This document shows positions 1 to 60,235 of a DNA stretch of 64,000 bases, piece after piece. Each line of letters opens with the position of its first letter. The first letter of the stretch is position 1. This stretch comes from Owenia fusiformis (Eukaryota; Annelida; Polychaeta; Sabellida; Oweniidae), in NCBI GenBank assembly GCA_903813345.2, contig CAIIXF020000004.1, forward strand, positions 19,810,477 through 19,874,476. Reading direction: 5' to 3'. Below the pieces are notes generated by a model, which saw nothing but the letters and a program-made list of their open reading frames with translations, ran no database searches and was not told where the DNA came from. The position numbers and the translations under genes are program-made.

Positions 1-672
1 ATTATACACTTTTACTTGAATAAAATATGTCACCAGCGTCTCACTTAAACATGTGGTGTGCCATGAGAAATAAGCATAATTTGCAAAATGTTCCTGAACT
101 GATACGACATGATGATCGCTAAGCTAATAGCCCTGATGCAAACCCCAGTGAGTATAAGGTTTTGGAAGGTCTCCAGGAGATTGTATGAAGGCACCCAATC
201 TAGAAAATTGCTCTACTAAAGCTGGCAATTAAAACAGGTTGAAAAAAACTTAGCTAACATTTCATTAATACTGCTATATCAGCAAGGCGACTAAAACTAA
301 AATATATCATTAAATAAGGCGGCGGACCAATTGAACTCCTCTTTTAGATCAAATTTAATTCAAGTTGAAGGACTTGTTATATTATATTATTACTATAAAA
401 AGTGGCGTTTTTGGCAGTTTTACAGAATTGTTTGCATGAAAGCTCATGAAATAATTCAATAAAAACGGTAAATCTCCCAAAACGTATTAAAACAAGTTAG
501 AAGATGGACATTGAAACTACAACAATGTCAAATCAATTACCATTCAAGTTTATAAAAGTTATTGTATATCCAATTTTCAATTTGAAATAGCAATGGGCAG
601 CATCGAAATGAAACAGCTGGTAGTGTAAAGCATATCAATTGTGTTTTAAACTAAACTCATTTAATTATTAAG
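1..672. other. Intron or upstream sequence, no exon seen
   Basis: AT-rich sequence with no recognisable exon. It ends in a short acceptor-like AG just before the first exon I can support. Because that exon opens in the middle of a protein domain, the stretch is most likely the 3' part of an intron, with earlier exons outside the window. Confidence 0.5.
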
Positions 673-868
673 ATGGATTGCTCATTGAGGATAAGTGGAA
701 GACTAGAGACCGGATTTTACGCCGCAGCCATCATGATCGAAGATTTCGACGATGTTTCCTCTACGACACCACTCAGTAGTGTTCCCGTACAATTCCTGCT
801 ACTTGTATTTAACTCAGATGCTGGTTGTTCAAGTGCACCAACCTTTTCGACAACTACGCGAAATGAAG
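673..868 (+). CDS. Exon 1 in window: ectodomain module, first part
   Basis: Open from an AG acceptor to the donor GTAATC, phase 0 in and phase 1 out. It encodes CSLRISGRLETGFYAAAIM, then a stretch with TTPLSSVPVQFLLLVF, then CSSAPTF. From memory of the family, this Y-A-A-x-x-IEDF ... LSSVPVQFL ... CSSxPxF pattern opens a module found in large extracellular proteins of many marine invertebrates. The first ATG at 673 lies inside the module and is not believed to be a start codon. Confidence 0.75.
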
Positions 869-3800
869 GTAATCTATTAATGAAGAACACTTTGAATTAT
901 GTTGATTCATATTGAAGTGACTTGGCCTCCTTGATTTCCCTTACGTTAGAGCCACTTTTGGTATCACATTTGGTGAACGTAAATTTAATATTCTTGGAGA
1001 AGACAGCTAGAAAGACAGACTAATAGGCAGACCAATTGGTTAATTTCGTCGCTTTTTTATTTTTGCAAATATACAGAATATATTTCTTTACAGGTGCGTG
1101 TGTTGGTGTCACACAATCTTTCGTCGAGCCTATCACTGTTAATACAGGCAATGCCAGAGGAATGTAAGTAAACAATAAGCCTATCACTGTTAATACAGGC
1201 AATGCTAGAGGAATGTAAGTTACCAATTAGCAAATCACTGTCAATAGAGGCAATGCTAGAGGAATGAAAGTTACCAATTAGCAAATCACTGTTAATACTT
1301 GCAATGCTAGAGGAATGTAAGTTACCAATTAGCAAATCACTGTTAACACAGGCAATGCTAGAGGAATGTAAGTTACCAATTAGCAAAGCACTGTTAATAA
1401 GGCAATGCTAGAAGAATATAAGTTATCAATTAACAAATCACTGTTAATACAGGCAATGCTAGAGGAATATAAGTTACCAATTAGCAAATCACTGTTAATA
1501 CAGGCAATGCTAGAGGAATATAAGTTACCAATTAGCAAATCACTGTTAATACAGACAATGCTAGAGGAATGTAAGTTACCAATTAGCAAATCACTGTTAA
1601 TACAGGCAATGCTAGAGGAATATAAGTTACCAATTAGCAAATCACTGTTAATACAAGCAATGCTAGAGGAATGTAAGTTACCAATTAGCAAATCACTGTT
1701 AATACAGGCAATGCTAGAGGAATATAAGTTACCAATTAGCAAATCACTGTTAATACAGGCAATGCTAGAGGAATATAAGTTACCAATTAGCAAATCACTG
1801 TTAATACAAGCAATGCTAGAGGAATGTAAGTTACCAATTAGCAAATCACTGTTAATACAGGCAATGCTAGAGGAATGTAAGTTAACAATTAGCAAATCAC
1901 TATTAATACCGGCAATGCTAGAGTAATGTAAGTTACCAATTAGCAATCACTGTTAATACAGGTAATGCTAGAGGAATATAAGTTACCAATTAGCAAGTCA
2001 CTGTTAATACAGGTAATGCTAGAGGAATGTAAGTTAACAATAAGCAAATCACTATTCACACAGGCAATGCTAGAGGAATGTAAGTTACCAATTAGCAAAG
2101 CACTGTTAATACAGGCAATGCTAGAGGAATGTAAGTTACCAATTAACAAAGCACTGTTAATACAGGCAATGCTAGAGGAATGTAAGTTACCAATTAGCAA
2201 AGCACTGTTAATGCAGGCAATGCTAGAGGAATGTAAGTTACCAATTAGCAAAGCACTGTTAATACAGGCAATGCTAGAGGAATGTAAGTTACCAATTAGC
2301 AAATCACTTTTAATACAGGCAATGCCAGAGGAATGTTATGTTAACAATTGACATATTACTGTTTAACACAAGCTTAAAGACAACTGAGTTAAGTGCGACC
2401 TTACTAATGACAAGGGTAAGAAAATGGAATATTTCGAGACCATAATTGGAGACAACGGTCATACATGGGACGTACAAGTTTAAGTTCAATGAGACCATAA
2501 CTAACGGCAGAACAAAATACAAAATTAAATGCTTGTAATGTGGCAATATATTACGCCAAAGTAAACTTGTAAATTCTTATTTTAAAGTACGAGTTTAAAT
2601 CAATGATTTTAGAATAACTGACATCGACACAGTTTCACCACAAGGACTTGAGAAGTCGGAGGTTTTGCAACGTGGACCAGGTGAATACTACATTAACATA
2701 ACATGGACACCCGAACGGAGCCAAGCAGGGCCGAATATATTTTGTTTCAATGCAATTGACAATATAGGGTATGTCTAAAATCCAAAGACTACAATTTACT
2801 TGTTGATATATACAGGGTGTCAAATAAATATTTTTCCCCCTCAACTTTAACATCCACGGTTGCATAACTAATTTGCCTGTATTATGTCTGAATTGTTCTT
2901 AGCACCTTAACCAGGCATCATCGAGCATTTCTACAAGAGGTTTCAGATGACTAGTTCATTTGAGGTGCATTTTTATGCACAATATTTCATACTCTTGAAA
3001 TCAAGGGGAGAACATTTTTATTTGACACCCTGTAATCTCATGACGTTGTAAGGAATCCCCAGCATACCATTTCATGTGACCAAACAGCAAGAAAATGTTA
3101 AGTTTGCCTTCGTGTGATATATTTGTTATGTCTCTTGTAATTTGCTGACTATATTATTGTATTTTAGTTTATCATCTGGCCAAAGGTGTATTACATTTTT
3201 GGTAGGAACTGCGCCACCTGAGTTTGTGGAAGGTACTGAGAGCCCCCCGAATGGGAGTATCATTCAAGAATGGCACAATCAGTTCTCCATACGAGTCAAC
3301 AGACCAGTAAATATCATATAATATTAATATTATAAAAATAACTAAATAAATTAGAAATTAGTTAAGATGCCGCCAACATTCACTGATTTATCAAGTACCT
3401 TTGAATGTATTCATATAAAATAGTAACAATAGAATTTTTCTCGACAACGATCCAACTAACTCTTAATCATTCAATATATCAGTTTGTTAAACCAAGACGG
3501 CACAGAGCCTTCATTCGATTCTTTGAGAGCAGATCTGAAGGTGTATATCGAGAGGTGTATCAGATCGACACCCGCAGCTCCGAGTTGGTACAATGGCCAT
3601 CAGAGGCAGACAATAGACGTACAATTAGAGAACTGAGATTCAACACAACGTATCAGTGGCGAAGAGGATATAACTATTATATAACGCTCGACCACGGTAA
3701 GAATATAACGCTAGAAAAGGTTTTGCTTTCGGCTACATGTCCCTTTGCAGCAATTTTGACAATTTGAGGAATCTATGCGTCGGTATCTCAGAAGGCCATG

Positions 3801-6800
3801 CCCTTATAAAAAAAATCAACCTTGAAAGTCCGAATTTAAACCGTTTCCACCAATCATTGAATAATGATTGTTTCAACTACCAAGATCAAAGGAAAAACCA
3901 TTGTACGATGATAAGCAATCATTGTGCAACCATTGTGTTCAACCAAGCGAAGTCAACTCTTTTTCAATGAATGCGCAACCGTTTCTATACAATCATTGTA
4001 ATCTGAAACCATCGTAAACTGCAACCATTTCACATTGAAATGTAAATGGTTGCAATTTGTTTTGTTCAATGATTACATAGTTCAACCCCTGCAACCATCC
4101 TGAATTAGTATCGTTCCAAAAAATTATCATTTTACCTGAATTAAAATTATCTTTAAGTAAGGATTTGAATCTACCTCTATTAAACAATAGTATATTAGGA
4201 TATTTTTTCTGCAAGCATACATGCATGTTTATTATAGTAAATAACTTAATTCATGTTAATATGTTTCTTTCTCCAGTATGAATTTAGGAATGCGATACCA
4301 GACTAGTTTTCCACTCAATGGCATATGATAATTTATGTTCTCTGTCATTTACATTATTTACACAAATTAAAAGTACCATATTTAGTATTTATTTCCCTTT
4401 ATCAGATATTGCCAAAATGATGTTAATTATGAAAAGAATTGAGCAAAATTCCAATTTGGTTAAGAAATTGACCAAGGAACATCTTAAGATTTCCTTTAAA
4501 CTTAACAAAATCACAAGATGAGACACAATGGTTTTTGTTCATGACTGATGATCAAACAATACCTACTACATATTGATATTCTCATGGGTTTAGGCAAATC
4601 AGAATGCTTGAACAGCCAATTAAAACGGTTGAACAGCTAATTAAAACGGTTGAACAGCTATATAAAACGGTTGAACAGCTAATTAAAATGCTTGACCAGA
4701 AATAGGGTTCATATTCCTAGTTTCTGTTATATTTATTTTCATATTGTGTTATACTATATATATTTTTTTATTCTCTATTTCATGCAGAGGGGGGGGGGGG
4801 GGGGCAAAAATTTGAAAAGCGTTTTCAGATTTTTGAGGGTTTATTTCTTTATTCAATTACTTTAATAAGTGCTGAGAAATCTCAAATAGCAAGTATATGA
4901 AACTGCAAATACTATTTTCTGAATTTTTTATTTCATTTTTATTTAGTTTTTTTACCATGGGCATTCAATAAATTGAAAGTTCATGGCTTTACTGTATTCA
5001 CTAGGGCATAGCATTTGTACTGAAACTTGTTTTCAGTTTAAATAATATGTGTCAATGATTAAAAACAACAAAAAAAACAGGGCTTATTTTTCAAAACTCT
5101 CAACTTGAAAAAATCTGGAGGAAAATATGGGAAATTTTCTTTGGCAAATTATTTATCATGTTCTGTGTATGGAATAATTAAATTACATAGGATGCTTCCT
5201 TTATAGCAGACTCTAATCAAACTGAGAGTCTCTCTGTTATAAGGTTTGTTTTGCCTTGCCGAATTACTTTTGTTTTGTTTATGGATTAATGGATTAATAA
5301 AGTTTCTTTAGACACATCCTTCAAAGCAGACTCTAATCAAACTAAAGAGACTGAGTCTTTCTGTAATCAGAATTTTTTAAGTTATGCTTATTGACTTAAT
5401 TATTTAAAACACATCCTTTACTGTCTGATTGCATTTTCTCTATCAAATCAAAAATATCAAATCAATAAACAGATTATTTTCTGATTGAAGGATTTCTTCC
5501 TTCCAGACAGATTTTCCCTCCTTTATAATTGTGACAATTACTCAGGTGAAGGTGAAGTATAGGTGTCTGAATTTGTAAAATTCAAGACTTGACCCAATCA
5601 AAATTATTTCAAATGTTTTTGCAATAACTTAAAAAGTAGTGAAGGGATTTTGTAAAAATGATTGTCATGACAGCGAGGGGATTTGCTATGCCTTAGCATT
5701 GCTGTTATCTAGATAATATATATGTGAGTGGGACAATCACCATCCTTCAAGGTTAGATGGAAATTGGTTCAATATATTTTCATTCACAAGATAAGTTTAC
5801 TAAACTATTTCAATATTTTAAATATCTTTTTGATCAAAAAAATTAAATTCTGACATGTATGCATGAAATACATACATTTGAAATATATATTTTAAAGAGC
5901 AATATAATTATTTTATGTTGTATTGAGATAATATTGCCATAGGTTTAAAGGGTTGCATTCGATTGAAACGGTTGCAAGAAATTCAATCAAAATTGTGAAG
6001 CGTTCACAATGGTTACATATGATTGAAACATTTTCAATGAGTTTACAACCAAAATTGTAATGGTTGCATTGTAACGGTTGGCATGGTTGCATAAATGATC
6101 GGATCAATGATTGTACAATGATTGTGCAACGGTTTAAATTCGGACTTTCAAGGTTGAATTTTTTATAAGGGTGGTTTCTCATGATAACGGCAACCATACG
6201 AGGGCCGTAACTTTACAAAATCGAAAGAAATATGCAGCATAAATATATAGGAATAAGCAATACGATGGGGATTTTCTGTATCGATTTTGTGTAGCTACGG
6301 TTGGAAACGTCTGAAAAAATTTTAAAGTTGTATGTTCCCAAGCATACAAGGACGTTGTTATCATTATACATAGAATTGGGTAAATTACTATTTACTATCA
6401 TATAGTTCAAAGATAACACAAGGTCTATTTCATACAAGCCTATATCATGTACATGTGTATAGAATGTGGTACTTTTCCAGGTGTGGTGATAGGTACCGTC
6501 GGATGTGGCGCAGATTCACCTGGTATATTCAATCCAACTTTTTGGACATTTACTGCTCGTAAGTCATAACTTCCAAATAAATACTAGCAGGGAAAACTAC
6601 AATACTCGAAACATAGAAGACAAAATGCGTATTAAAAGGAGAATCAGGTTAAGCAAGCAACCTTTACACAAATTGTTTCAATTTTAGATTTTTTGGCTCT
6701 ATCATTCCTTCTTCATTCCTTGGCATGTCTATTCTCTAAAAAATCCAAAAATGTCTTTGATTCCAACTATTATTTCACGGTCATATGCTAGATCGTTCAG

Positions 6801-9800
6801 AATCAAAATCACAGTTCACACATTTATTATCTGACGGATATTTCAGAGTCATAAAAATGTAATTGCATGGACGTAGTAAGTGTTCATAAGAGATCACTCA
6901 TGTCAATGATAATATAACATATACGTGCATATTTAGGACCACCAGACTGTAGTATTCTGAATGACTGCAGTGGTAATGGAACATGTGTAGCTGATAACCT
7001 TTGTAAATGTGATTTTGGATTTACTAAAGACGATTGTTCAGAATGCGAGGAGAATCGCTGGGGCTCCGATTGTAAACCCTGTTTGAATTGTAACAATGGA
7101 CATTGCAGCCCCAAGAACGGTGTGTGAATACGATCTCTACATTGCATATTTAACAGATATTTGTCTATTTTGTACAGAATATAGTTTTTACCACCTCCGT
7201 GTTAACTATGGTTTCGATTTCAATTAAATAGTAACAGACGATACGATAAGAGCAGCACAAAAACAACAAGTTATTGAATGATTTGAATTGTAGTACAGTA
7301 TATATTCTGCTCGAGAAATTCTGCATTGGAACGAGACAAAGTCGAGTGCCAATACAGAATATCGAGAGCAGAATACTGTATTGCACTTCAAATCATTCTT
7401 TAACGTTTTTATTGTATGGTCTTAGGTAAATACATTTTACCTAGGAGATTATCCCTAAGAAATTTTCTGTATTGCTACTGATTGTCTCATCCGTACCTAT
7501 ATTTTCTGTATTGCTCCGAAGATGATCAAAAGGGACAATCTCAGTAGCAATACAGGTTGGTACAGTACAAGAACTGACCAATCAGAGAGTGATATTGGAA
7601 TCAATTTTTAAAACGTTTTCTATCGTTTCTGTGTGCAAGGCATGTCCAAACTACCAAATCGAAATTATACATACTAAGTTTGTACGCTGGATCTCACAGA
7701 ACTATACAGTCCTGGTAATGGATAAATGGACATAATCATATAACTATTCCGTTTCTGTAGGAGAGTGCATATGTGATGAGGGGTGGGCTGGCCTGATCTG
7801 TTCATTTTGTGCAGAGGGTTATGTAGGACCATCGTGTAAAAGGTGCCCAGTTTGTCTAAATGGCGGAAGGTGCGACCTACGAACAGGTACGTTTACGAAT
7901 CCACAATTTGGTTTATTAATGCAACAGTTCATCTCAATTTGGTTCATAAATCACGCGGTAAATATTTCCACAATCGCCATCCAGTTTGGTTTATCAAGCC
8001 AACACTGCCACATAATACATTTTGGCTTATTATCAATTGACTCGTAGTAATTTGTCAGACTGGGTGGCGACTAGAAAATGCAAAAGGTCGCCGGAAAACG
8101 GGAACACATCGCAAGAAAATGTCCCACACATTACAACATGAAAAAAATCGCGTCCTGTGCGATAAGTTCACTACGTTCGACGCGTCCGTCACTTTCCCGT
8201 CATCGTAGCAGCGCAGTATGGACGCATCCCGGTCTGACGGTTGGTATAACACACATTTTCTGCACATGCTGTAGGTGGCTGTATTTGTGAGATAAACTGG
8301 AAAGGAGAGAGGTGTGAATCACCGACCTGTTCATTATACAACGAGTGCTGGTAAGTGGTAACTATACAACAAATGAAAATACAGTATAAAAGTCAATCTA
8401 AGTCGGATCCAAAGATTATTAATCATGTCTTTAGTATTTTGTGCTTTGCTATATCCGAACAGTAAAATACTTACGGCCAAAATATAGTATCATATGAAAA
8501 GGAAAATTGCGGAAATATTCCAAGTATTTTAGCTTGAATTGTGTACTCTCACACACAGGAACCATGGAGAATGCATAGCTCCGAATGAATGTCGTTGCGA
8601 CGAGGGGTTCTTAGCACCAGACTGTAGGCTTTGTATGCGGGACGTACCTAGATTTGGAACATCATGTACATCGTGTCAATGCACACATGGCACTTGTAAC
8701 ACACATACTGGTGAGTTCATTTGGATGTTTGAATATCTAGATGAAAGTCAATCTTAGATTAAATATTATTGGAGATATTGGGTGGATTGAGAAGTTGCAA
8801 TAAGTGTACACTACAGGTATAGATATGATTGTGCCATTTTGGGATCTTTTGTATGATTGATTGCTGCATCCCCTTTGAAAATTATTAAGTTATTGCAATA
8901 TGGACGTTTGTTGCCCACCACCTACTCTACTAGTTCATTTGCCACTGTGACTGTACTAGCACTTTCGGAATTCTATTTGTGATAGGTGCCTGTACTTGTC
9001 AAAGAGGTTGGGTGGGACCTTTATGTGACGAACCAGATTGCAGATTACTCCGTCATTGTAGTGGTCATGGCAAGTGTGTCGGCCCTAATCGGTGTGAATG
9101 CGATGAACGTCATAGCGGGCCAACGTGTTTGTCCTGCGGCGCCGATAGGTGGGGCGACAATTGTGAATTGTGTCCAGCCTGTGTCAATGGTGGATGCGAT
9201 AAAATAACAGGTATAAGATGCAATATATAACAATGAGACAAAAATAATTGTCGAATTGATTTATACTTTATTGTTTTTTCCTCAGTTCTTAAGTTTTATA
9301 AGTTTATTTACGGAGTGTCCAAGACCAACGGAGCATAATCTGTCCTTCGAAATGGCCATATCATTTTGTGTAGTAATTACCAAAATAAAGTACTCTTCTC
9401 TTTTTGCCCTGGTTAAACACCAAAATGACTTCTTAAAATTAAATCACAAGGGAATTTAATTTATTTAGTAAAAACATGTTTGTTATCCGTTGTTGATTCT
9501 AAAGACACTTTAAATGATACTGGAATATCAAGTTGAGAATGTGTTGAAAGCAACTTCACATATTCTTGACAGGAAATCTTACAGGTGCACCGGTGGAATT
9601 AAACTGATACACCTTTTTAAATAATTGTACCCTAAAAACCACATTCATTGAGAAGAGAGCATTTTGAATCTATAACATCAAGTTAAATTGATCATTTCAG
9701 AACTAAGAGTGTGTGTATACATGTATGCATATATATTTTATTGATCTAAATCACACTAGGTGCTTGTGTGTGCGAAGCTTTATGGGAAGGGGAATTGTGT

Positions 9801-12800
9801 GACAAGTGTATACCAAATCACGCTGGACCACTTTGCCTCCCTTGTCCGAAGTGTGACCATGGAACGTGTGACTTGATCAATGGTTTGTCCGTTTACTTAC
9901 CCTACTATCACACCAAACTAGTTCTCACTACGTTCTCGAAAACGGGCTTCAACTGTGTACGAACGGACTGGACGTACTTAGAACCGTTTGGGATCTATTT
10001 ACAAACTTCATCGAACGTACTCGAACGGGTAGGTCCTCTAGAACTAAGACAATGCTCAAAATATTCTCATGGTCGTCACGTTCTTCAATAAGAACGAGTG
10101 ACAACGTACTAACGACGAGCTGGACGTACTACGAACGGAACCGTCGTACTTCAACCCTACTAGGGACGTTTTAAAAACGAGTTGAACTGTCTGAGGACGT
10201 GTTGAGAACGAGGTAGAACTAAGTGCAAACGGGTTTAAACTGATTAAGAACGTATTTAACACTGCTTATGAACGAATTAGCAAAAATATAGCTATCACAC
10301 CAAACAAGTTGCCACTGCGTTCTTCAAAACTGGTTTGAAACTGTGTGCGAACGGAATGAACGTACCTGCAACTTTCTAAGGTCTATTTACGAACTTTATG
10401 AACGTTCTCAGACGGGAATGTGATTTTAGAATTTTGAATCGATTCAAAATTCGATGGCGACCATACCGTTCTGTAATCAGGTCATGTTGACCTTCTAGAC
10501 TAAGGAACGCGTTCTACGACGTTGCACACCGACGTGGTGCGACCTGAACGAACTGCAAACGAGATGGACGTATTGAAGACTGTTTAAGAACGAAGAAGCT
10601 AATTATTTTAGACATATTTTCCGACCACAGCCAGATTGAGCCCGTTTTACGACGTTTTCGTAAGACTGGCAAGAACGGGTAAGAACTAGTTTGGTGTGAT
10701 AGGGGGGTAAAGAAGATAGCACAATACAAGTACCTTTTCCAATACTCCCATTTGCAATTATAGATTGTTCTTTGTATTGTCATATCATTTTGTCATTTTG
10801 TGCCGCAAAAGAACTCGATACCTATAAGTAACAATTTGGAAAAATACAAAACAGATCAAAATTGATTTTACAATATTATAAAACAAACTTAGTTCACTCG
10901 GACACACTACTCGATGCATAACATGGAATGCAATAACGTGACATATTTATATGAACTGTAGGAGGCTGCACATGTGGATCTGGGTACGTTGGTCCAAATT
11001 GTGACGAGACGAGTTGTAGTGATGTTAATAACTGCAATGATCATGGGAATTGTGTTGGACCAAATGTATGCAGCTGTGACATTGGTTATAGTGGGTCTGA
11101 TTGTTCTGTACCACTGTGTGAACTCACGCACAACTGCAATGGGAATGGGTTTTGTATTTCGCCAAACAAATGCCTTTGTAATGTAGACTTTACAGGATTT
11201 GATTGTGGGTCCCCAGCCTGCACTGGACGACTGGACTGTAATGGACATGGCAATTGTATTAGTCCGAATGTATGCGAGTGTGACAGTGGATACAGTGGTG
11301 ACGATTGTGCAATTCCTACGTGTAAAGGTTTGGATGATTGCAACGGTCGCGGGATGTGTACAAGTCCCGATGTGTGCATTTGTAATGTTGGCTATACAGA
11401 TTCTGACTGTAGTACACCAATGTGCACAACTTTGAGTGATTGTCATGGCAACGGTGAATGTATTCATCCTGAAATATGTCAGTGCAACGATGGCTACACA
11501 TCTAAGGATTGTGCCGTACCCATATGCACATCATTGAATGACTGCAATGGGAATGGAAACTGTGTAAGTCCGGATAAATGTGCATGTAGTAAAGACTATA
11601 GTGGTGACGATTGCAGCACACCAATGTGCAATGGAGTAAACGCATGTACCAATCATGGGAAGTGTATCGCACCTGATTTGTGTGAATGTATGGACGGCTA
11701 TACAGGAGATGACTGTGGCAAGCCAATCTGTGCCACTGTGAATGATTGTTCCAGTCATGGCCAATGCATTTCACCAGATCGGTGTCAATGCGACGCTGGT
11801 TACTCAGATAAAGATTGTGCTACTCCTTTGTGTGATAAAGTCAATGGTTGTAATAACAATGGTGAATGTGTGAGGCCGGATGTTTGTTCATGCCACAGTG
11901 GTTACACAGGTGATGATTGTTCAATCCCAAGTACTCCATTCACATCATCTACGGTGGATGGTTTGATATCATCGACAGTGTCACATTCACCATCAACAAC
12001 GTCAGAATCACCATTAAGAATAACAGTGCAAACTACATTGGCGTCGCTGACATCAACAAACACACTTAAACAATCTACGTCTGCATATAACTGTGCCAAG
12101 GTGAATGACTGCAGTGGACATGGCGTGTGTATAGGAACAAACCTATGTCGCTGTCATGACGGGTTTACTGGAGGAAAATGTAAGCGTTGTATAAGGAACA
12201 GAGTCGGTCCCAACTGTATAGAGTGCCCTCTTTGTGTACACGGGATATGTAACATATTAAAAGGTATGTATCATGATGAGATGTGCGGAGTTTACCTGTA
12301 GAGATATACTCCTTTAAAAAAAGTTAAGGACCAGTCTTTTTCCTCATAGGTTTACATGTTAAACACCATGTATCTTTGAACTCTATTTTCTAAGCGAAAC
12401 AAAAGGAAAACTGATAAATGGATATGTACCTTGACTCTATTCTCTATATTTCAGGAAATACTCAATTTAATCTCTTCATTACAAAAGGTCAAAATTGATG
12501 TTAAAGTTGAGGAATTTAAAAAAATGGTAGAACCCATGTTAACCAACTTACGTAAAACTTACTATGTGAGAATTACTGATACTCAGCATCAAAGTATTTT
12601 TGACAATTCATTTTTTCATTTATTCAGAAATAATTTTTGACCTTTGAAACTCATATTAACTTTGTAAAAGCCGGAAAAACAAATCAATTTTTTGTTGTAG
12701 ACAAGTTAGCAAATTCAATTGTCTATGTAAATTCCATTTTCGAGAAAGAGATTAGAGTCAAGGTACACATCCATTTATCAGTTTTTCTTTCGTTTCAGGC

Positions 12801-18800: not shown

Positions 18801-21800
18801 GTCCTTAATAAGTTTACAATTAGTTCTACATCGTTCCCAACACGTCCCATGCAATATATTATTGAATTACCACCTAATATCCAGTTTAACTCGTTCCTTC
18901 AAAATATACATTTTAGAACATATTTGCACGGAATAATGACTGACTAAGGACGTTATTCGGTCGAGTTGGGTCTGTCTACGAACAGAATGAACGAGCAACA
19001 AACGACCAGGTTGGTGTGCACACGACTGCAAAGTTGAAATACGTTCCTAGTGGGATTGAAGCACAACAGTTCCGTTCGTAGTCCATCCAGCTCGTCTTAG
19101 TACGTTTTCAATCGTTGCAAAATCAGAAAGAAAGTTCTCGAGAATCTTCCCGTTGAGATCTAGTTTGGTGTGATAGTGGGATTAGGTCTCAATAATCAAT
19201 AATAAAAAAGAAGTGCTACCGAAGTGTTTCTAAATTTTTCCATTTGCGAAAGGACAAGTCTCTGTTTGGAGAACAGTCTCCTAGGCTAATATTCTTTAAT
19301 AAAAAATATAGAAATATTACCCAAATGAAATTATGAATATTAAAAAGAGATGTAAAAATATCACAATTGTCCGAAGCAGGGATCTCAATTTGGAGAAAGA
19401 AGTCCATCAGTGTACTGCGCTAATGATTTTATATGAAAAATCTAGGAATAACACCCAAATTAAATTATGACTAATCAAATGAAGACACTCAAATCTATAT
19501 TATGTAAAACATCAAAGTCCGAAGCAGTGGTAACGCTCAATTAGAGTGATGAACTTCGTTCTCCAAACGGAGAATAGCCCTTTCAATTGTAAATTCTATT
19601 TTGCAAAAATCGAAAAATAAAACAGTTTAGTCTTGCAACCAATTTTGTCAAGTACAGTAAGATCTTGGAAGAAGAATAGACTCACTATCCCGGGCTCACT
19701 ATGCATATTGATGTGCCAAACTGTTAAACATCACATGTTGTGCATATAACCAATTTGTAAGTAAATGCGCCCCACACACAAAAATGTTTTAAATCTGTTC
19801 ATATGCTAAAACATTTAGTTTGTCCTGAAAATTTCAGGTACATGTGATTGCAAGTCTGGTTATGGTGGTGATCTTTGTCAGCATCTGATTATGACATCAA
19901 CAGTCACCCATTCGACAACAGATACAAAAATTGATGTCACGCCGACGGAACTGTTTTTAAACAATTCTTCGACTAATCCGACTAGTGGTTCTCCGGCTCA
20001 TGGCTGTAACAATGTTAACAACTGCAGTGGACATGGTTATTGTGTAGGCCCTGATGTGTGCAAATGTCACGATGGATTTGCTGGTCGCAAGTGCAAGCGA
20101 TGTAGTAAGGATAGATTCGGACCAACTTGCTCAAAATGCAAAGATTGCGAAGAAGGCAGATGCAATGAAATCACAGGTAGACTCTGACGTTAATTTTCCA
20201 AAATGAAATATGAATACTAGTACTATTATAAAACAATTTGTTTTTGTTTTAAGCTTGACAAAATAATTTTAGGAATCTGTGATATAACAACAACAAAGCG
20301 TGTGCATACAGACGTCATGAGAGAAACTACTTCTTCACCTAAAAAAACAACAATTGATACATTTGAACCTACGACTTTAGCTGCTAAAACAACAATTAAC
20401 AATGGTGAATCCATGACTTCACCTGCCATAACAACAATTGATGCAAGTGCATCTAAGACTTCACCTGGTATAACAATAATTGATAATAGTGCACCTGAGA
20501 CTTCACCTGGTATATCAACAATTGATACTAGTGCATCTTCGACTTCAACTGATATATCAACAACTGATGCTAGTGCATCTAAGACTTCACTTGGAATAAC
20601 AACAATTGATATAAGTGCATCTAAGACTTCACCTGGTATAACAACAATTGATACAAGTGCACCTGAGACTTCACCTGGCATAACAGAAAATGATACTAGT
20701 GCATCTACGACTTCACTTGGAATAACAACAATTGATATAAGTGCATCTAAGACTTCACCTGGTATAACAACAATTGATACAAGTGCACCTGAGACTTCAC
20801 CTGGCATAACAGAAAATGATACTAGTGCATCTACGACTTCACTTGGAATAACAACAATTGATATAAGTGCATCTAAGACTTCACCTGGTATAACAACAAT
20901 TGATACAAGTGCACCTGAGACTTCACCTGGCATAACAGAAAATGATACCAGTGCATCTACGACTTCACTTGGAATAACAACAATTGATATAAGTGCATCT
21001 AAGACTTCACTTGGAATAACAACAATTGATACAAGTGCACCTGAGACTTCAACTGGTACAACCGAAATGGACACTGAAGAATCTACAACTTCACCTGGTA
21101 TAACAACAATTGATACTAATGCATCTACGACTTCACCTGGCATAACAACAATTGAACCTAGTGCCTCTACAACTTCACCTGGTATATTAACAACTGAAAC
21201 TAATGCATCTACGTCTTCAACTGATAAAACAATAATTGATACTGGTGAAACTACGACTTCAATTGATATAACAATATACCCTGGAAAAACTACTGATAAA
21301 ACATCAACTGACACTGGTGAAACAACGACTCCAAATGATATGTCAACAATTGATACAAGTGAATCTAAGACTTCACCTGGTATGACAACAATTGATACAA
21401 GTGAATCTAAGACTTCACCTGGTATGACAACAATTGATACAAGTGAATCTATGACTTCACCTGGTATGACAACAATTGATACAAGTGAATCTATGACTTC
21501 ACCTGGAATAACAACAATGGACACTAAAGAATCTACAACTTCACCTGGCACAACAACAACAACAATGGGCACTGGTGAATCTATAACTTCACCTTACATA
21601 ACACCAATTGATGCTAGTGCATCTAAGACTTCACTTGACATTACAACAACTGACATTAATGAATCAAAGACTTCATATGGTATAACAACAATTGATACAA
21701 GTGAATCTATGACTTCACCTGGTATGACAACAATTGATACAAGTGAATCTAAGACTTCACCTGGTATGACAACAATTGATACAAGTGAATCTAAGACTTC

Positions 21801-24800
21801 ACCTGGTATGACAACAATTGATACAAGTGAATCTATGACTTCACCTGGTATGACAACAATTGATACAAGTGAATCTAAGACTTCACCTGGTATGACAACA
21901 ATTGATACAAGTGAATCTAAGACTTCACCTGGTATGACAACAATTGATACAAGTGAATCTATGACTTCACCTGGTATAACAACAATGGACACTAAAGAAT
22001 CTACAACTTCACCTGGCACAACAACAACAACAATGGGCACTGGTGAATCTATAACTTCACCTTACATAACACCAATTGATGCTAGTGCATCTAAGACTTC
22101 ACTTGACATTACAACAACTGACACTAATGAATCAAAGACTTCACCTGGTATAACAACAATTGATGCTATTGCATCTAAGAGTTCACCTGGCATAATAACA
22201 ATTGATACAAGTGCATCTAAGACTTCAACTCATATATCAACATTGGACACGGAAGAATCTACAACTTCACCTGGTACAACAACAATTGATACTAGTGCAT
22301 CTAAGAGTTCACCTGGTATAACAACAATTGATGCTAGTGCATCTAAGAGTTCACCTGGTATAACAACAACTAATGCTATTGCATCTAAGACATCATCTGG
22401 CATAACAACAATTGATACAAGTGCATCTAAGACTTCACCTGGTATAACAACAATTGATGGTAGTGCATCTAAGAGTTCACCTGGTATAACAACAACTAAT
22501 GCTAATGCATCTAAGACATCACCTGGCATAACAACCATTGATACTAGTGCATCTAAGACTTCACCTGGCATAACAACAATTGATACACGTGCATCTAAGA
22601 CTTCACCTGGTATAACAACCATTGATACAAGTGCATCTAAGACTTCACCTGGTATAACAACAATTGATACAAGTGCATCTAAGACTTCACCTGGTATAAC
22701 AACAATTGATGCTATTGCATCTAAGAGTTCACTTAGTATAACAACAATTGATGCAAGTGCATCTAAGACTTCGCCTGATATAACAACAATTGATGCTAGT
22801 GCATCTAAGAGTTCACCTGGTATAACAACAATTGATACAAGTGCATCTACGACGTCACCTGGTATAACAACAATTGATACAAGTGCATCTAAGACTTCAC
22901 CTGGTATAACAACCATTGATACAAGTACATCTAAGACTTCACCTGGCATAACAACAATTGATACAAGTGCATCTAAGACTTCACCTGGTATAACAACAAT
23001 TGATACAAGTGCATCTATGACTTCAACTCATATAACAACATTGGACACTGAGGAATCTACAACTTCACTTGGCACAACAACAATTGATACTAGTGGATCT
23101 AAGACTTCACCTGGTATAACAACAATTGATACTAGTGCATTTAAGACTTCAACTCTTATAACAACATTGGACACAGGTGAATCTACAACTTCACCTGGTA
23201 CAACAACAACAATTGATAATAGTGCACCTGAGACTTCACCTGGCATAACAACAATTGATACTAGTGCATCTGAAACTCAACCTGGTATAACAACAATTCA
23301 TACTGGTGATCTTACGACATCAACTGACATAACAACAAATAAAAATGGTGAAACTGTGACGCCTGGTGTAACAACAATTGAAGATGGGGAAATTTCGACT
23401 TCATCTGATGAAACAACAATTGACAATGGTGGATCCACGATTTCATTTGGTGTAACAGCAATGGTTACAGGTGAATCTACAACTTCACCTGGCATAATAA
23501 CAACTGATGCGAGTGCATCTAAGACTTCACCTGGTATAACAACAATCGATACTGGTGCATCTAAGACTTTACCTGGCATAACAACAATTGATACTCGTGT
23601 ATCTCAGACTTCACATGGTATAACAACAATTGATACAAATGCATCTACGACTTCAACTGATATAACAACAATAAACACTGGGAAAACTGATGATATAGCA
23701 TCAACTGACGGTGTTGAAACTACGACTCAAGTTGATATAACAACAATTAATACTGGTGAATCTAAGACTTCAATTGATATAACAAGAATGAACACTGGAA
23801 AAACTGCTGATGTAGTTTCAACTGGTAAAACAGCTATGGGCATTAGTGAAACTACGACTACAATTGATATAACATCAATTGACACTAGACATAGTGCTTT
23901 TACAACTTCGCCTAACATAACAACGATAACCACAAGTGAAAATATGACGCCACATGATAAAACAACAATTGATATAATAACAAATGAAACTGGTGAATCT
24001 ACGATCTCAACTGGTAAGACAACTATCGACATTGTAGTATCCTCCACAATCAAATCTACTACAAATCCAATTTTTGATGTTTCAACTACAGCTGAACTAT
24101 TATTAAATCATTCTCTGACCATTCTCACTTCTCCGGCATATAGCTGTAAAAATGTTAACGACTGCAGTGGACACGGTTATTGTGTAGGCCCCGAGATATG
24201 CAAATGCCATGATGGATTTGCTGGTCGCAAGTGTAAGCGATGTAGGAAGGATAGATTCGGACCCAGTTGCTCAAAATGCAAAGATTGCAAAGAGGGAAGA
24301 TGCAATGAGATTACAGGTAAACTCTGGATTTAATTTAGTTTTCTCATTCGAAATGAATAGTATTTCAAAATGATCTGTTTTATCTGAGTATCTAAATAAT
24401 AATTTTAGGAAGATGTGATATGATTACAACTACTGTCAACGTCATGAATGAAACTATTTCAAATACAACAGCTGCACGTGCAACATCTACAACTTTAACT
24501 GATACATCAGTCACTGGAGCATCTACGACTTTGGCTGATATAACAACAATAGAAAATGATGAATCTACGATTACAAGTAATATACCAACAGCAGGCACTG
24601 GTCCATCTTTGACTTCAGCTTATAAAACAACGATGGGCACTGGTCCAACGACGGCTTCAGCTGGTGTTTCAACAATCGACACAAGTCCATCTATGACTTC
24701 AGCTAATACAACAACGATAGGCACTGGTCCAACGACGGCTTCTTCTGATATTTCAACAATCGACACAAGTCCATCTATGACTTCAGCTAATAAAATAACA

Positions 24801-27800
24801 ATTGACACTGGTCCAACGACAGCTTCAGCTGATATTTCAACAATAGACACAAGTTCATCTACGACTTCAGCTAATAAAATAACAATTGACACTGGTCAAA
24901 CGATGGCTACAGCTGATATTTCAACAATAGACACAAGTCCATCTATGACTTCATCTGATAAAACAACAATTGACACTGGTCCAACGACGGCTTCAGCTGA
25001 TATTTCAACAGTAGACACAAGTTCATCTATGACTTCAGCTAATGAAACAACGATTGACACTGGTCCAACAATGGGTACAACTGATATTTCAACAATAGAC
25101 ACAAGTCCATCTAGGACTTCAGCTAATAAAACAACGATTGACACTGGTCCAACAATGGGTACAACTGATATTTCAACAATAGACACAAGTCCATCTATGA
25201 TTTCATCTAATAAAACGACGATAGGCACTGGTCCAACGACAGCTTCAGCTGATATTTCAACAAGAAACACAAGTCCATCTATGACTTCAGCTAATAAAAC
25301 GACGACTGACACTGGTCCAAGGACAGCTTCAGCTGATATTTCAACAATAGACACAAGTTCATCTATGACTTCAGCTAATAAAACAACGATAGGCACTGGT
25401 CCAACGACAGCTTCTTCTGATATTTCAACAAGAGACACAAGTCCATCTTTGACTTCAGCTAATAAAACAACGATAGGCACTGGTCCAACGACAGCTTCAG
25501 CTGATATTTCAACAATAGACACAAGTCCATCTATGACTTCAGCTAATAAAATAACGATTGACACTGATCCAACGACAGCTTCAGCTGATATTTCAACAAT
25601 AGACACAAGTTCATCTATGACTTCAGCTAATAAAACGACGATAGGCACTGGTCCAACGACAGCTTCAGCTGATATTTCAACAATAGACACAAGTCCATCT
25701 ATGACTTCAGCTAATAGAACAACGATTGACACTGGTCAAACAATGAGTACAGCTGATATTTCAACAATAGACACAAGTCCATCTATGACTTCAGTTAATA
25801 AAACAACAATTGAAGCTACTCCAGCTGTGACGTCAACTAATATGACAACAATTAACATTCGTGCATCTAGTATCTCAACTTATACAACAGCAATTGGCAC
25901 TGATGAATCAAATACTCCAACTGATATGATAACAATTGAAACTGGTTCAACGACAGCTTCAACTAATAAAACACCAATTTACACTAGTGCATCGACGAAT
26001 TCCATGGAAACAATTTCAACTGATCTAACAACAATTGACACTGGAGTATCTCCGACGTCAACTGATATCACAACGATTGACAATGGAGTATCTTCTACTA
26101 TCAAATCTACTACAAATCCAAAATTTGATGTTTCAACTACAACTGAACTATTAATAAACTATTCTTCGACCATTTCAACTTCTCCGGCATATAGCTGTAA
26201 CAATGTTAAAAACTGCAGTGGACATGGTTATTGTGTAGGCCCTGACATGTGCAAATGCCACGATGGATTTGCTGGTCGGAAATGCAAGCGATGTAGAAAG
26301 GATAGATTTGGACCCACCTGCTCAAAATGCAAAGATTGTAAAGAAGGAAGATGCAATGAGACTACAGGTAAACTCTAAAATTCATTGATTTTTCAAGTTC
26401 CATATGAATAGTGATTGCAAAGAGAGAAGGTGCAATGAGTTAACAAGTACACTCTGAATTTAATTCATTTTTCAAATTTGAAATAAAAAGTATTTCAAAA
26501 TGATTATCAAACTGTGTATTTATCTAAATCCGAAATGATTTTAGGTAGGTGTGATATAATTACAACTACTACCAATGTCATGGATGAAACTACTTTACAA
26601 AAGACAGCTACTCATGCGACATCTACGACCTTGACTGATACGCCAATAGAAAATGATGAATCTACAATAACAAGTAATATACGGACAACACTCACTGGTG
26701 CATTTGTGACTTCAGCTAATAAAACGACGATTGAAACTGGTACAACGGCGACTTCAGCTAACAGAACAACAATAGACACAAGCCCATCTATGACTTCAGC
26801 TAGTATCACAACAATTAATATTGGTGCATCCAGCACTTCAAGTGATACAACATCAATTGACACTGATGAATCAAAGACTTCAACTGATATGATAACAATT
26901 AAAACTCGACCGACGACAGCTTCAACTGACAAAACAACATTTGACACTGGTGCATCTACGGATTCACCTGATGTAACAGCAAATGACAATGGTGCATCCA
27001 TGAGTACAACAACAATCGATACTCATGCATCTATGACGTCAACTGGTACAACAGCAATTGACACTGGTGAAACAACATCAACTAACATAGCAACAATTGA
27101 TACTAGTGCTTCTAAGCCTTCATCTGGTATAACAACAATGGACACTGGTGCATCAACAACTTCATCCGGAATATCAACAATTGATACTAATGCATCTGAG
27201 ACTTCACCTGGTATAACAACAATTGATACTGGTGCATCTGCGTCTTCAACTGATAAACCAACAACTGATACTAGTGAAACTACGACGTCATCTGGTATAA
27301 CAACAACTGATACAAGTGCATCTAAGACTTCAACTTCAACAAGTGGTGAAATTATAACGCCAAATAGTAGTACAGCAATTGACACTAGTGAAACAACATC
27401 AACTGACATAGCAACAATTGGTACTATTGCATCTAAGACTTCATCTGGTATAACAACAATTGATACAAGTTCATCTAAGACTTCAACTGATATAACAACA
27501 ATTGATACTAATGCATCTACGACTTCAGCTGGTATAACAACAATTGATACTAATGCATCTACGACTTCACCTGGTATAACAACAATTGATACTAATGCAT
27601 CTACGACTTCACCTGGTATAACAACAATTGATACTAATGCATCTACGACTTCAGCTGGTATAACAACAATTGATACTAATGCATCTACGACTTCACCTGG
27701 TATAACAACAATTGATACTAATGCATCTACGACTTCACCTGGTATAACAACAATTGATACTAATGCATCTACGACTTCAGCTGGTATAACAACAATTGAT

Positions 27801-30800
27801 ACTAATGCATCTACGACTTCAGCTGGTATAACAACAATTGATACTAATGCATCTACGACTTCACCTGGTATAACAACAATTGATACTAATGCATCTACGA
27901 CTTCAGCTGGTATAACAACAATTGATACTAATGCATCTACGACTTCAGCTGGTATAACAACAATTGATACTAATGCATCTACGACTTCATCTGGTATAAC
28001 AACAATGGACACTGGTGCATCAACAACTTCATCCGGAATATCAACAATTGATACTAATGCATCTACGACTTCACCTGGTATAACAACAATTGATACTAAT
28101 GCATCTACGACTTCACCTGGTATAACAACAATTGGTACTAATGCATCTACGACTTCACCTGGTATAACAACAATTGATACTAATGCATCTACGACTTCAG
28201 CTGGTATAACAACAATTGATACTAATGCATCTACGACTTCAGCTGGTATAACAACAATTGATACTAATGCATCTACGACTTCAGCTGGTATAACAACAAT
28301 TGATACTAATGCATCTACGACTTCACCTGGTATAACAACAATTGATACTAATGCATCTACGACTTCAGCTGGTATAACAACAATTGATACTAATGCATCT
28401 ACGACTTCACCTGGTATAACAACAATTGATACTAATGCATCTACGACTTCACCTGGTATAACAACAATTGATACTAATGCATCTACGACTTCAGCTGGTA
28501 TAACAACAATTGATACTAATGCATCTACGACTTCAGCTGGTATAACAACAATTGATACTAATGCATCTACGACTTCACCTGGTATAACAACAATTGATAC
28601 TAATGCATCTACGACTTCAGCTGGTATAACAACAATTGATACTAATGCAGCTACGACTTCAGCTGGTATAACAACAATTGATACTAATGCATCTACGACT
28701 TCATCTGGTATAACAACAATGGACACTGGTGCATCAACAACTTCATCCGGAATATCAACAATTGATACTAATGCATCTACGACTTCACCTGGTATAACAA
28801 CAATTGATACTAATGCATCTACGACTTCAGCTGGTATAACAACAATTGATACTAATGCATCTACGACTTCACCTGGTATAACAACAATTGATACTAATGC
28901 ATCTACGACTTCACCTGGTATAACAACAATTGATACTAATGCATCTACGACTTCAGCTGGTATAACAACAATTGATACTAATGCATCTACGACTTCAGCT
29001 GGTATAACAACAATTGATACTAATGCATCTACGACTTCAGCTGGTATAACAACAATTGATACTAATGCATCTACGACTTCAGCTGGTATAACAACAATTG
29101 ATACTAATGCATCTACGACTTCAGCTGGTATAACAATAATTGATACTAATGCATCTACGACTTCAGCTGGTATAACAACAATTGATACTAATGCATCTAC
29201 GACTTCAGCTGGTATAACAACAATTGATACTATTGCATCTACGACTTCAGCTGGTATAACAACAATTGATACTAATGCATCTACGACTTCAGCTGGTATA
29301 ACAACAATTGATACTATTGCATCTACGACTTCAGCTGGTATAACAACAATTGATACTAGTGAAACTACGACATCAACTGACGTAACAACAATTTTAAGTA
29401 GTGAAACGATGACGCCTCATGGTATAACAGCAGTTGACAATGGTGAAACTACGACCTCAAGTGATGAAACAACAATTGATCCTGGTGAATCAACGACTTC
29501 ATCTGATATAACGACAATCGATATAAGAACATCTAAGGCTTCACTTGTTATAACAGCAGTTGGCACTGGTGCATCAACGACTTCAGCTGATACATTAGCA
29601 ACTGGCAGTGATGCTACGACGTCAGCAGATATAACAAAATTTGACACTGGTGCATCCACGACTTCAACTTATTTGACAAAAAATGACACTGCAGTATCTT
29701 CGACATCAACTGATATCACAACGATTGACAATGGAGTATCTTCTACTATCAAATCTACTACAAATCCAACATTTGATGTTTCAAGTACAACTGAACTATT
29801 ATTAAACTATTCTCCGACCATTTCAACTTCTCCGGCATATAGCTGTAACAATGTTAACGACTGCAGTGGACATGGTTATTGTGTAGGCCCTGACATGTGC
29901 AAATGCCACAATGGATTTACTGGTCGCAGGTGCAAGCGATGTAGAAAGAATAGATTCGGACCCAGCTGCTCAAAATGCAAGGATTGCAAAGAAGGAAGAT
30001 GCAATGAGACCACAGGTAAACTCTAAAATTAATTGATTTTTCAAATTCCATATGAATAGTATTTCAAGATGATGTGTATTTATTGAAATATATTTATATC
30101 AATTTTAGGAAGATGTGATATAATTACAACTACTACCGACGTCATGGATAGAACTACTTCACAAACAAGATCTGCCCATAATACATCTACAAATTTAACT
30201 GATACAACATCAGTAACTGGAGAATCTACGACTTTGACTGATTTAACAACAATAGATAATGATGAATCTACGATTACAAGTAATATACCAACAGCAAATG
30301 AAACCACGACTGACACTGAGCCAACGACAGCCTCAGCTGATGATACAACAATTGACACTGGTGCATATACGATTTCAACTGAAATAACAGCAATAGATAC
30401 ATCTGGTACATCTACGACTTCCATGGATAAAACAACAATTCCTAATTTAACTGTTAAATCTATGACTTCAAATGATAAAATGACAACTCCTGCTATTGAA
30501 TCTACAACTTTAGGTAGTACAATAACTGAAACTGGTGAATCTACTTCTCCGAATTATAATACTATAATCAAAACTGTTGGATCTTCTACTTCAAATGATA
30601 TTATCACAACAGACGTTGGTGAATATATGACTTCAAATGATATAATAACTGAAACTGTTGATTTTACTTCTTCCGATGATATAATAACAAATGACATCGG
30701 TAGATCTTCTACACCAAATGATGTAACAACAATTGATCATGACAATAGTAGATCTTCTACACCAAATGATGTAACAACAACTGATAATGACAATAGTAGA

Positions 30801-33800
30801 TCTTCTACACCAAATGATGTAACAACAATTGATCATGACAATAGTAGATCTTCTACACCAAATGATGTAACAACAATTGATAATGACAATAGTAGATCTT
30901 CTACACCAAATGATGTAACAACAATTGATAATGGCAATAGTAGATCTTCTACACCAAATGATGTAACAACAATCGATTATGACAATAGTAGATCTTCTAC
31001 ACCAAATGATGTAACAACAATTGATAATGGCAATAGTAGATCTTCCACACCAAATGATGTAACAACAATCGATTATGACAATAGTAGATCTTCTACACCA
31101 AATGATGTAACAACAATTGATAATGACAATAGTAGATCTTCTACACCAAATGATCTAACAACAATTGATCATGACAATAGTAGATCTTCTACACCAAATG
31201 ATGTAACAACAATTGATAATGACAATAGTAGATCTTCCACACCAAGTGATGTAGTAACAATTGATCATGACAATAGTAGATCTTCTACACCAAGTGATGT
31301 AGTAACAATTGATCATAACAATAGTAGATCTTCTACACCAAGTGATGTAGTAACAATTGATCATAACAATAGTAGATCTTCCACACCAAATGATGTAACG
31401 ACAATTGATCATGACAATAGTAGATCTTCTACACCAAATGATGTTACAACAATTGATCATGACAATAGTAGATCTTCCACACCAAATGATGTAACGACAA
31501 TTGATCATGACAATAGTAGATCTTCTACACCAAATGATGTAACAACAATTGATCATGACAATAGTAGATCTTCTACACCAAATGATGTAACAACAATTGA
31601 TCATGACGATGGTAGATCTTCTACAACAAATGATATTACAGCAATTGATCATGACAATAGTACATCTTCTACACCAAATGATGTAACAACAGTTGATCAT
31701 GACAATAGTAGATCTTCTACACCAAATGATGTAACAACAATTGATCATGACAATAGTAGATCTTCTACACCAAATGATGTAACAACAATTGATCATGACG
31801 ATGGTAGATCTTCTACAACAAATGATATTACAGCAATTGATCATGACAATAGTACATCTTCTACACCAAATGATGTAACAACAGTTGATCATGTCAATAG
31901 TAGATCTTCTACACCAAATGATGTAACAACAATTGATCATGACGATGGTAGATCTTCTACAACAAATGATATTACAGCAATTGATCATGACAATAGTACA
32001 TCTTCTACACCAAATGATGTAACAACAGTTGATCATGTCAATAGTAGATCTTCAACATCAAATGATGTAACATCAATTAATGTTGGATATACTACTTCAA
32101 ACGATATAACAACAATTGATCATAGCATTAGTGGATCTACTTCTTCAAATCTTAGAACAACAATTGATATCGGTAATGGTCGACCTACTTCTTCAAACGA
32201 TATAACAACAATTGATCATAGCATTAGTGGATCTACTACTTCAAATCTTAGAACAACAATGGATATCGGTAATAGTCGACCTACTTCTTCAAATGATAGA
32301 ACAACAATTGCTTTTGGAAGTGTTGGATCTACAAATTCAAATCTTGAAACAACAATTGATATTAGTAAGAGTGGATCTACTACATCAAGATTTATTGATA
32401 TTAGTAATAGTCAATCTACTTCTTCAAACGATATAACAACAATTGATCATAGCATAAGTGGATCTACTACTTCAAATCTTAGAACAACAATGGATATCGG
32501 TAATAGTCGACCTACTTCTTCAAATGATATAACAACAATTGCTTTTGGAAGTGTTGGATCTACTACTTCAAATCTTAAAACAACAATTGATATTAGTAAG
32601 AGTGGATCTACTACACCAAGAACGATTGATATTAGTAATGGTCGACCTACTTCTTCAAATGATATAACTACAATTAATCATGACAAAGGTGGATCTACAA
32701 CTGACATTGTTGGATCTACAGGTACTTCTTTCAATGGTATAATAACAAATGCAACAGATAGGAGAACAACCGTCCCTTTAAGTAGTATAATTACAAATAC
32801 TAGAACTGCATCAGATACTTCACCTAATAAAATGACAATTAACACTGTTCGATCTACAACATCAACAAGTAAAATATTAACTGACACTGTTGGATCTACA
32901 ACATCAACTAATAAAATATTAACTGACACTGTTGGATCTACAACATCAACTAATACAATATCAACTGACACTGTTGGATCTACAACATCAACTAATACAA
33001 TATCAACTGACACTGTTGGATCTACAACATCAACTAATACAATATCAACTGACACTGTTGGATCTACAACATCAACTAATAAAATATCAACTGACACTGT
33101 TGGATCTACAACATCAACTAATACAATATCAACTGACACTGTTGGATCTAAAACATCAACAAATAAAATATCAACTGACACTGTTGGATCTACAACATCA
33201 ACTCATAAAATATCAACTGACACTGTTGGATCTACAACATCAACTAATAGAGTATCAACTGACACTATTGGATATAAAACCTCGACAAATAAAATGACAA
33301 TTAACACTGTTGGATCTACAACATCAATTAATGGAATATCAGCGGACACTGTTGGATCTACAACATCAACTAATAAAATATCAAGTGACACTGTTGGATC
33401 TTCAACATCAACTCATAGAATATCATCTGACACTGTTGGATCTACAACATCAACAAATGAAATATCAACTGATACTGTTGGATCTATATCAACTAATGAA
33501 ATATCAATTGACACTGTCGGATCTACAACATCAACTGATAAAATATCAACTGACACTGTTGTCTCTACAACATCAACTAATAAACTATCAACTGACACTG
33601 TTGGATCTACAACATCAACTAATAGAATATCAACTGACACTGTTGGACCTACAACATCAACTAATAAAATATCAACTGACACTGTTGGATCTTCAACATC
33701 AACTAATAAAATATCAATTGACACTGTTGGATCTACAACATCAACTAATAAAATATCACCTGACACTGTTGGACCTACAACATCAACTCATAGAATATCA

Positions 33801-56362: not shown

Positions 56363-56383
56363 ATTGTAACAACGAATGGAGAA

Positions 56384-59485: not shown

Positions 59486-59551
59486 CTGCAAAAGCATTTG
59501 AAGGAGTGACTGAAGGCCATGGATGGAACGTGAAACCTCACCTCATATTTT

Positions 59552-59700
59552 ATTGTCTGAAATGAGAAAGATCATTGATTGCAATTAATCGCCAACATAT
59601 TTAATTGTCTGAAATGAGAAAGATCATTGATTGCAATTAATCGCCAACATATTTAATTGTCTGAAATGAGAAAGATCATTGATTGCAATTAATTTATTTG
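59552..59700. repeat. 52-bp tandem repeat, about three copies
   Basis: ATTGTCTGAAATGAGAAAGA ... recurs at 59552, 59604 and 59656, nearly identical, followed by partial decayed copies to about 59760. It lies between the two remnants of the fibrinogen-related gene. Confidence 0.85.
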
Positions 59701-60143: not shown

Positions 60144-60235
60144 TGTTACATTGGTGTTGTATTTTTGGTTGTTGTTGTGGAATACAAAATGTCAAAGGAG
60201 CCTTTGTTAACTTAATAACCCTCTCAGCATATTTT

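Follow-up and report, generated by a model that had tools for sequence, protein, structure and literature searches.

Minisatellites that copy an exon-intron boundary have been described before, the original papers reportedly being Turri 1995, on the donor minisatellite of human IFI6, and Canestro 2002. In lancelets, tandem duplications of exon-intron boundaries, termed "mirages", are reported to leave splicing undisturbed (PMC3087553, PMC3902484; these and the other papers named below are cited from parts of their text). They were described in Adh3, the globins BflGb6 and BflGb9 and other genes (PMC3087553), to which PGBD5 and troponin C were added (PMC3902484), and it was suggested that new introns may originate from them (PMC3087553). 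In human IFI6 (also 6-16 or G1P3), a minisatellite at an exon end supplies several donors, and the use of two downstream units results in protein variants (PMC4526556). Here we describe a 51-bp minisatellite (positions 1132-2363, plus strand) in a 64,000-nucleotide stretch of Owenia fusiformis DNA, hereafter the window, which repeats the end of an exon, its 5' splice donor and the first bases of the following intron in 24 copies. The array belongs to the kind of arrangement known from lancelet mirages. Judging from the sequence, we consider it very probable that the copy attached to the exon is the exon end and would be chosen by exon definition, the rest of the array being a tolerated by-product and not a device.

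Tandem Repeats Finder (TRF) gave a period of 51 bp, 24.2 copies and 93% matches for this array (score 2077, threshold 50). The first of the 24 donors lies at 1164 and the last at 2335, with 21 of the 23 steps between them measuring 51 bp and the other two 50 bp, in agreement with the original prediction of a splice donor amplified about 24-fold by a minisatellite. Each unit carries 36 bp from the end of the exon, followed by 15 bp from the start of the intron. That the unit contains the exon end, its donor and the first intron bases had also been predicted, and the former estimates of "about 15" GTAAGT and "about seven" ATAAGT proved exact: the donor hexamer is GTAAGT in 15 copies, ATAAGT in seven, GAAAGT in copy 3 and GTTATG in copy 24. 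The exon part of copies 2-24 shares 30-35 of 36 bases with copy 1, excluding copy 6, which is thrown out of register by a deleted base and agrees at only 20 of 36; the intron part shares 11-14 of 15 bases in copies 2-23 and 5 of 15 in copy 24. GTAAGT has been lost in nine of the 23 copies after the first, and GT is the most variable adjacent pair of the array, none of the 47 other pairs being as high (copy 24 outside this count). The features of a mirage recur here, namely a tandem minisatellite-like repeat (51 bp × 24.2, 93%), a unit that apparently spans an exon-intron boundary (36 + 15 bp, the boundary being backed by paralogues), and splice signals in many, not all, repeats (GTAAGT in 15 of 24 copies).

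Exon 2 of the host gene (1094-1163, plus strand) is 70 bp long, and its last 36 bp form the exon part of copy 1. It has an open frame behind an acceptor TTTACAG and ends in phase 2 at GGAAT|GTAAGT, precisely where the original prediction had placed its end. Exon 1, in the numbering of that prediction (673-868, plus strand), has an open frame coding for ...NSDAGCSSAPTFSTTTRNEG and a donor AAG|GTAATC, with its 5' end not fixed, and exon 3 (2613-2768, plus strand) is entered by a phase-2 join. Protein search with the joined exons revealed two paralogous exons, homologous to exon 3, at G000:C9:4294916 and C9:4253790 of the same genome, with E-values of 4.7e-4 and 0.0039 that are weak alone, and identities of 44% and 39% over 52-54 query residues. 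In both paralogues the intron before the homologue of exon 3 is likewise in phase 2 (two bases before, one after), with lengths of 175 and 181 bp compared to 1449 bp here. Neither of these introns contains GTAAGT, and TRF over each 3.2-kb locus found no tandem repeat. A presumed common cysteine, aligned by eye, lies 40 residues from the junction in the paralogues and 37 residues here when donor 1 is used, and the residues around the junction agree (SPQG ... NLFCF in the paralogues, SPQG ... NIFCF here). Since phase, position and sequence agree with two paralogues, the gene model is supported despite the weak E-values; moreover, since the paralogues possess the same phase-2 intron without an array, donor 1 is supported as the true exon end.

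The intron at 869-1093 has no counterpart in the two C9 paralogues, where this region appears by eye to be one exon, so the gene structures of host gene and paralogues are not identical. Pfam search with the joined exons 1-4 of the host gene found no family match, and with the three forward frames of 1-9002 it gave two matches only, both below cut-off. A paralogue peptide, the first 15 query residues of which came from a wrong frame, found no match in the PDB.

Donor 1 (1164-1169, plus strand; AAT|GTAAGTAA) is the sole frame-keeping donor among the 24, consistent with the earlier claim that it alone avoids an in-frame TAA. The 23 following donors, hereafter decoys, extend over 1215-2340 on the plus strand and comprise 14 GTAAGT, seven ATAAGT, one GAAAGT and one GTTATG. 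Translation places an in-frame TAA at 1165-1167 (plus strand), which is reached if a later donor is used or the intron is kept; joining donors 2-24 to position 2613 retained this TAA in 23 of 23 cases and gave an identical truncated end, ...GNARGM*. Predicted pairing with the 5' end of U1 amounted to -7.0 kcal/mol for donor 1, -5.4 kcal/mol for the 14 intact decoys and -2.5 kcal/mol for ATAAGT, the advantage of donor 1 being due to an A at +7. The description of the donors as "near-identical" therefore calls for a qualification, given the longer predicted U1 pairing of donor 1 and the nine of 23 decoys without GTAAGT.

In the mechanism we propose, a segment comprising the 36 bp at the end of exon 2 and the adjoining 15 bp of intron was tandemly amplified into the intron; the amplification is evident from the sequence, and its cause would most likely be slippage or unequal exchange. 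Pairing over the length of the exon would link the upstream acceptor to the donor closest to it, leaving the 23 following copies intronic. Choice of donor 1 is possibly aided by its slightly better U1 match and by the decay of nine of the 23 decoys. Transcripts in which donor 1 is bypassed would meet the TAA, be truncated and probably be degraded.

To place this array in context, the 498-Mb genome G000 was searched for places where a donor motif occurs three times at a spacing, with the reversed motif as a control of crude background; the figures count overlapping triplets, not arrays. GTAAGT triplets at 30-60 bases apart showed no excess (7610, 4039+3571, versus 7921, 4197+3724, in the control). 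By comparison, AGGTAAGT gave 568 triplets (422+146) against 328 (184+144), and the fuller consensus CAGGTRAGT was in clear excess, with 293 (167+126) against 67 (66+1). Among the matches listed for the latter two motifs on contigs C1-C6, 21 arrays were taken as a non-random sample, in which the neighbouring clusters C1:6976937 and C1:6978852 count as one array, and the 5' flank was read for all 21. In 10 of them, homology (best E-value at most 4.9e-6) was found for the frame running up to the first donor, the match reaching within five residues of the donor. These homology-supported exons belong to BLOC1S5/Muted, a NIF-type phosphatase, a Cys-loop receptor, UGDH, MRPL52, a Rieske ferredoxin, a BTB protein, INTS9, SMC4 and a KIAA0895-like protein. 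Six arrays follow an open frame with weak or no homology: L010 has a weak tetraspanin match (Pfam E-value 0.058) and none in the PDB, L043 and L045 gave no useful Pfam match and no PDB match, and L011, L036 and L046 gave no match in Pfam, the database searched for these three. No exon was seen in the 5' flank of the remaining five (L013, L035, L038, L039 and L041).

Joining the next exon at the first donor gave alignments to solved homologues that cross the junction without a gap for SMC4 (E-value 5.5e-44, 76 of 76 residues) and INTS9 (E-value 1e-26, residues 2-74 of 76), and the UGDH donor junction looks continuous by eye. In the MRPL52-like gene, all 42 GT[A/G]AGT decoys within 2.5 kb are identical to the first donor over 11 bases. 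Perhaps about 32% of single CAGGTRAGT are true donors, because 8875 were found compared to 6057 in the control, array copies included. On the question whether arrays arise preferentially at exon ends, the matches listed for CAGGTRAGT give no decision: they comprise 14 distinct arrays, 10 of which look exonic (binomial p 0.0027), but counting only the six that are backed by homology gives p 0.27. An in-frame stop before every decoy covered was found in 12 of 17 genes (11 of the 16 scored, the window gene included, plus BLOC1S5), and in the remaining five (the tetraspanin-like gene, the BTB gene, L036, L045 and L046) at least one decoy lies ahead of the stop. The clearest of the five is the tetraspanin-like L010 (G000:C1:442000-444400), whose 54-bp unit contains no in-frame stop and in which 16 decoys precede the stop. 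The decoy donors of L010 would insert 18-residue repeats rather than a stop.

Arrays on the acceptor side were also observed. The UGDH gene on G000:C2 has four copies of about 91 bp, each with an acceptor and exon start, before one exon (L053, 976-1249; recognised by eye, the script pattern having found none), and three acceptor-side copies before an earlier exon (L015, 45-305). The last copy of each of these arrays continues into the exon body, and the same gene also carries a donor-side array. Two acceptor-side copies precede the tetraspanin-like exon. Within the window, a candidate second boundary array was located by TRF and by eye on the minus strand at 59544-59693, where a 52-bp stretch, an acceptor-like TTTCTCATTTCAG with the bases that follow it, occurs three times. 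The frame beside it appears broken and possibly fibrinogen-like. By eye, no exon end was seen at either edge of the array at 39415-45141, a 67-bp satellite of 85.7 copies with 91% matches, nor at the left edge, the sole edge viewed, of that at 60223-61741.

These two orientations bear on how a true site would be recognised. A rule by which the copy contiguous with the body of the exon is used fits donor arrays, where it is the first copy, and acceptor arrays, where it is the last, whereas a rule by which the first transcribed site wins fits the donors only. Use of the exon-attached copy is also what pairing across the exon would be expected to produce.

Several results weigh against exon definition with a tolerated array. 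For each of the 15 other arrays that were scored, several of them partial, the strongest decoy is predicted to pair with U1 as well as the first donor or better (e.g. -12.6 versus -10.7), so splice-site strength cannot be the general rule. A permutation test on nine pooled arrays (p 0.33) showed no excess of GT loss at decoys, with 16 of 404 sites compared to 387 of 11184 for the other columns, although eight of the nine were found through intact donors, a bias, and one (L030) is without a recognised exon. There is accordingly no sign of general selection against decoys, and the arrays seem tolerated. In mammals, strength as well as SR and hnRNP proteins determine which of several competing donors is used, and the intron-proximal one may be preferred (PMC5585400); such a preference would here mean a late copy. 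In addition, alignment across the junction covered two of the 10 homology-supported cases, SMC4 and INTS9.

The decoys might instead be used on purpose, with some transcripts taking donors 2-24 or retaining the intron, and with a truncated protein or a decay-lowered expression tuned by array length. Fourteen decoys do keep the full GTAAGT, one common stop serves all 23, and in human IFI6 two downstream repeat units function as donors (PMC4526556). Product diversity is impossible by this route, however, as one and the same truncated end would result from each of the 23; the lancelet papers, in the parts cited, argue against aberrant transcripts (PMC3087553, PMC3902484), and the array is missing from both paralogues. 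We therefore regard purposeful use as improbable. Less probable still is that the exon is unreal or unused and that the array is just a minisatellite of the usual intronic or intergenic sort, with GTAAGT in it by chance. The lack of an excess of GTAAGT triplets over the reversed control indicates that donor-like arrays do arise without exons, and five of the 21 arrays examined have no visible exon; against this stand the open frame, the splice sites and the phase that match two paralogues, as well as the clear excess of the fuller consensus.

A further explanation concerns the copy number, which could be an artefact of an array collapsed or expanded in assembly. Tandem arrays are frequently mis-sized, and a lancelet globin mirage was apparently misassembled in a genome draft (PMC3087553). 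The copies here differ from each other, and two units are 50 bp long, so the array is not one copy erroneously repeated; an artefact would also touch the copy number only, not the arrangement. We think it has a small chance of being correct, similar to that of purposeful use. Exon definition by the attached copy, with the array tolerated, is the reading we retain.

The claim that an array of competing donors is a rare arrangement did not hold up, in view of the lancelet mirages, human IFI6 and the recurrence at other genes of the same genome. What may be new is this recurrence outside lancelets, on both donors and acceptors: no description of boundary-spanning arrays in protostomes was seen in the open-licence literature searched, little of it on annelids or molluscs, which is no proof of novelty. 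Tentatively, we raise the possibility, which we consider less likely than its opposite, that this lineage, probably protostome, repeatedly turns exon-intron boundaries, donors and acceptors alike, into minisatellites above chance, and that its splicing passes dozens of identical sites by position alone. If this is true, the genome amounts to a natural experiment, on a large scale, in how splice sites compete, and it is a place where new introns originate at present. Studies of the choice among equally good 5' splice sites mostly use two-site minigenes; several genes here have one presumed true donor followed by many equal copies, for which the prediction is that the exon-attached copy wins. 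The findings also suggest that boundary duplication, a proposed source of introns, is not peculiar to lancelets.

As regards the lineage, three matches to the mir-2 family exceeded the gathering score and a fourth fell short of it, all within 5.2 kb (60 of 155227 first-look candidates were scored, and one bacterial control rang below cut-off). Outside protostomes mir-2 is not known to occur, and the cluster suggests a protostome rather than a lancelet. A search of the genome for the GFP family, made without a positive control, found no match, which likewise speaks against a lancelet, as does the class III-like Adh gene described below. COX1 was not found.

Elsewhere in the window, a teneurin-type EGF exon lies at 10955-12301, and long tandem repeats with units mostly of 42-48 bp occupy 20333-34301 within four open frames whose lengths range from 660 to 1404 codons. 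On the minus strand, a frame of 920 codons at 53621-56383 contains LRR, Roc and COR-A domains.

Compared to the known systems, the window array is closest to the lancelet mirages. These affect 5' and 3' boundaries alike (PMC3087553, PMC3902484), and donor- and acceptor-side arrays likewise occur in this genome. The lancelet units measure 10-72 bp in Adh3 and 150-160 bp in the globins, with six and three units in the BflGb6 haplotypes (PMC3087553, PMC3902484), compared to 51 bp × 24 copies here. In the class III-like Adh gene of this genome, no boundary array was seen over profile positions 30-364, a range that does not include the first exon. Its large intron (G000:C9:33409501-33417300) contains one set of tandem repeats at two places some 5 kb from each other, which looks like the duplication of a segment. 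Mirages are further marked by length polymorphism and somatic instability, whereas the window array is known from one assembly; and regular splicing is reportedly undisturbed in lancelets, while here the corresponding case is argued from reading frame and homology.

The earthworm, an annelid like the host, carries minisatellites in intron 1 of its metallothionein gene, but these intronic arrays are described without boundary copying in the parts of the paper cited (PMC12783039). Where introns are gained through tandemly duplicated AG/GT proto-splice sites, a local duplication likewise copies splice signals; unlike in that process, the intron position and phase here are common with the paralogues, and no new intron is shown. 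Human IFI6 and the window array both have an exon-end minisatellite that offers several donors, but the downstream units of IFI6 yield protein variants, whereas the decoys of the window array would all yield the same stop.
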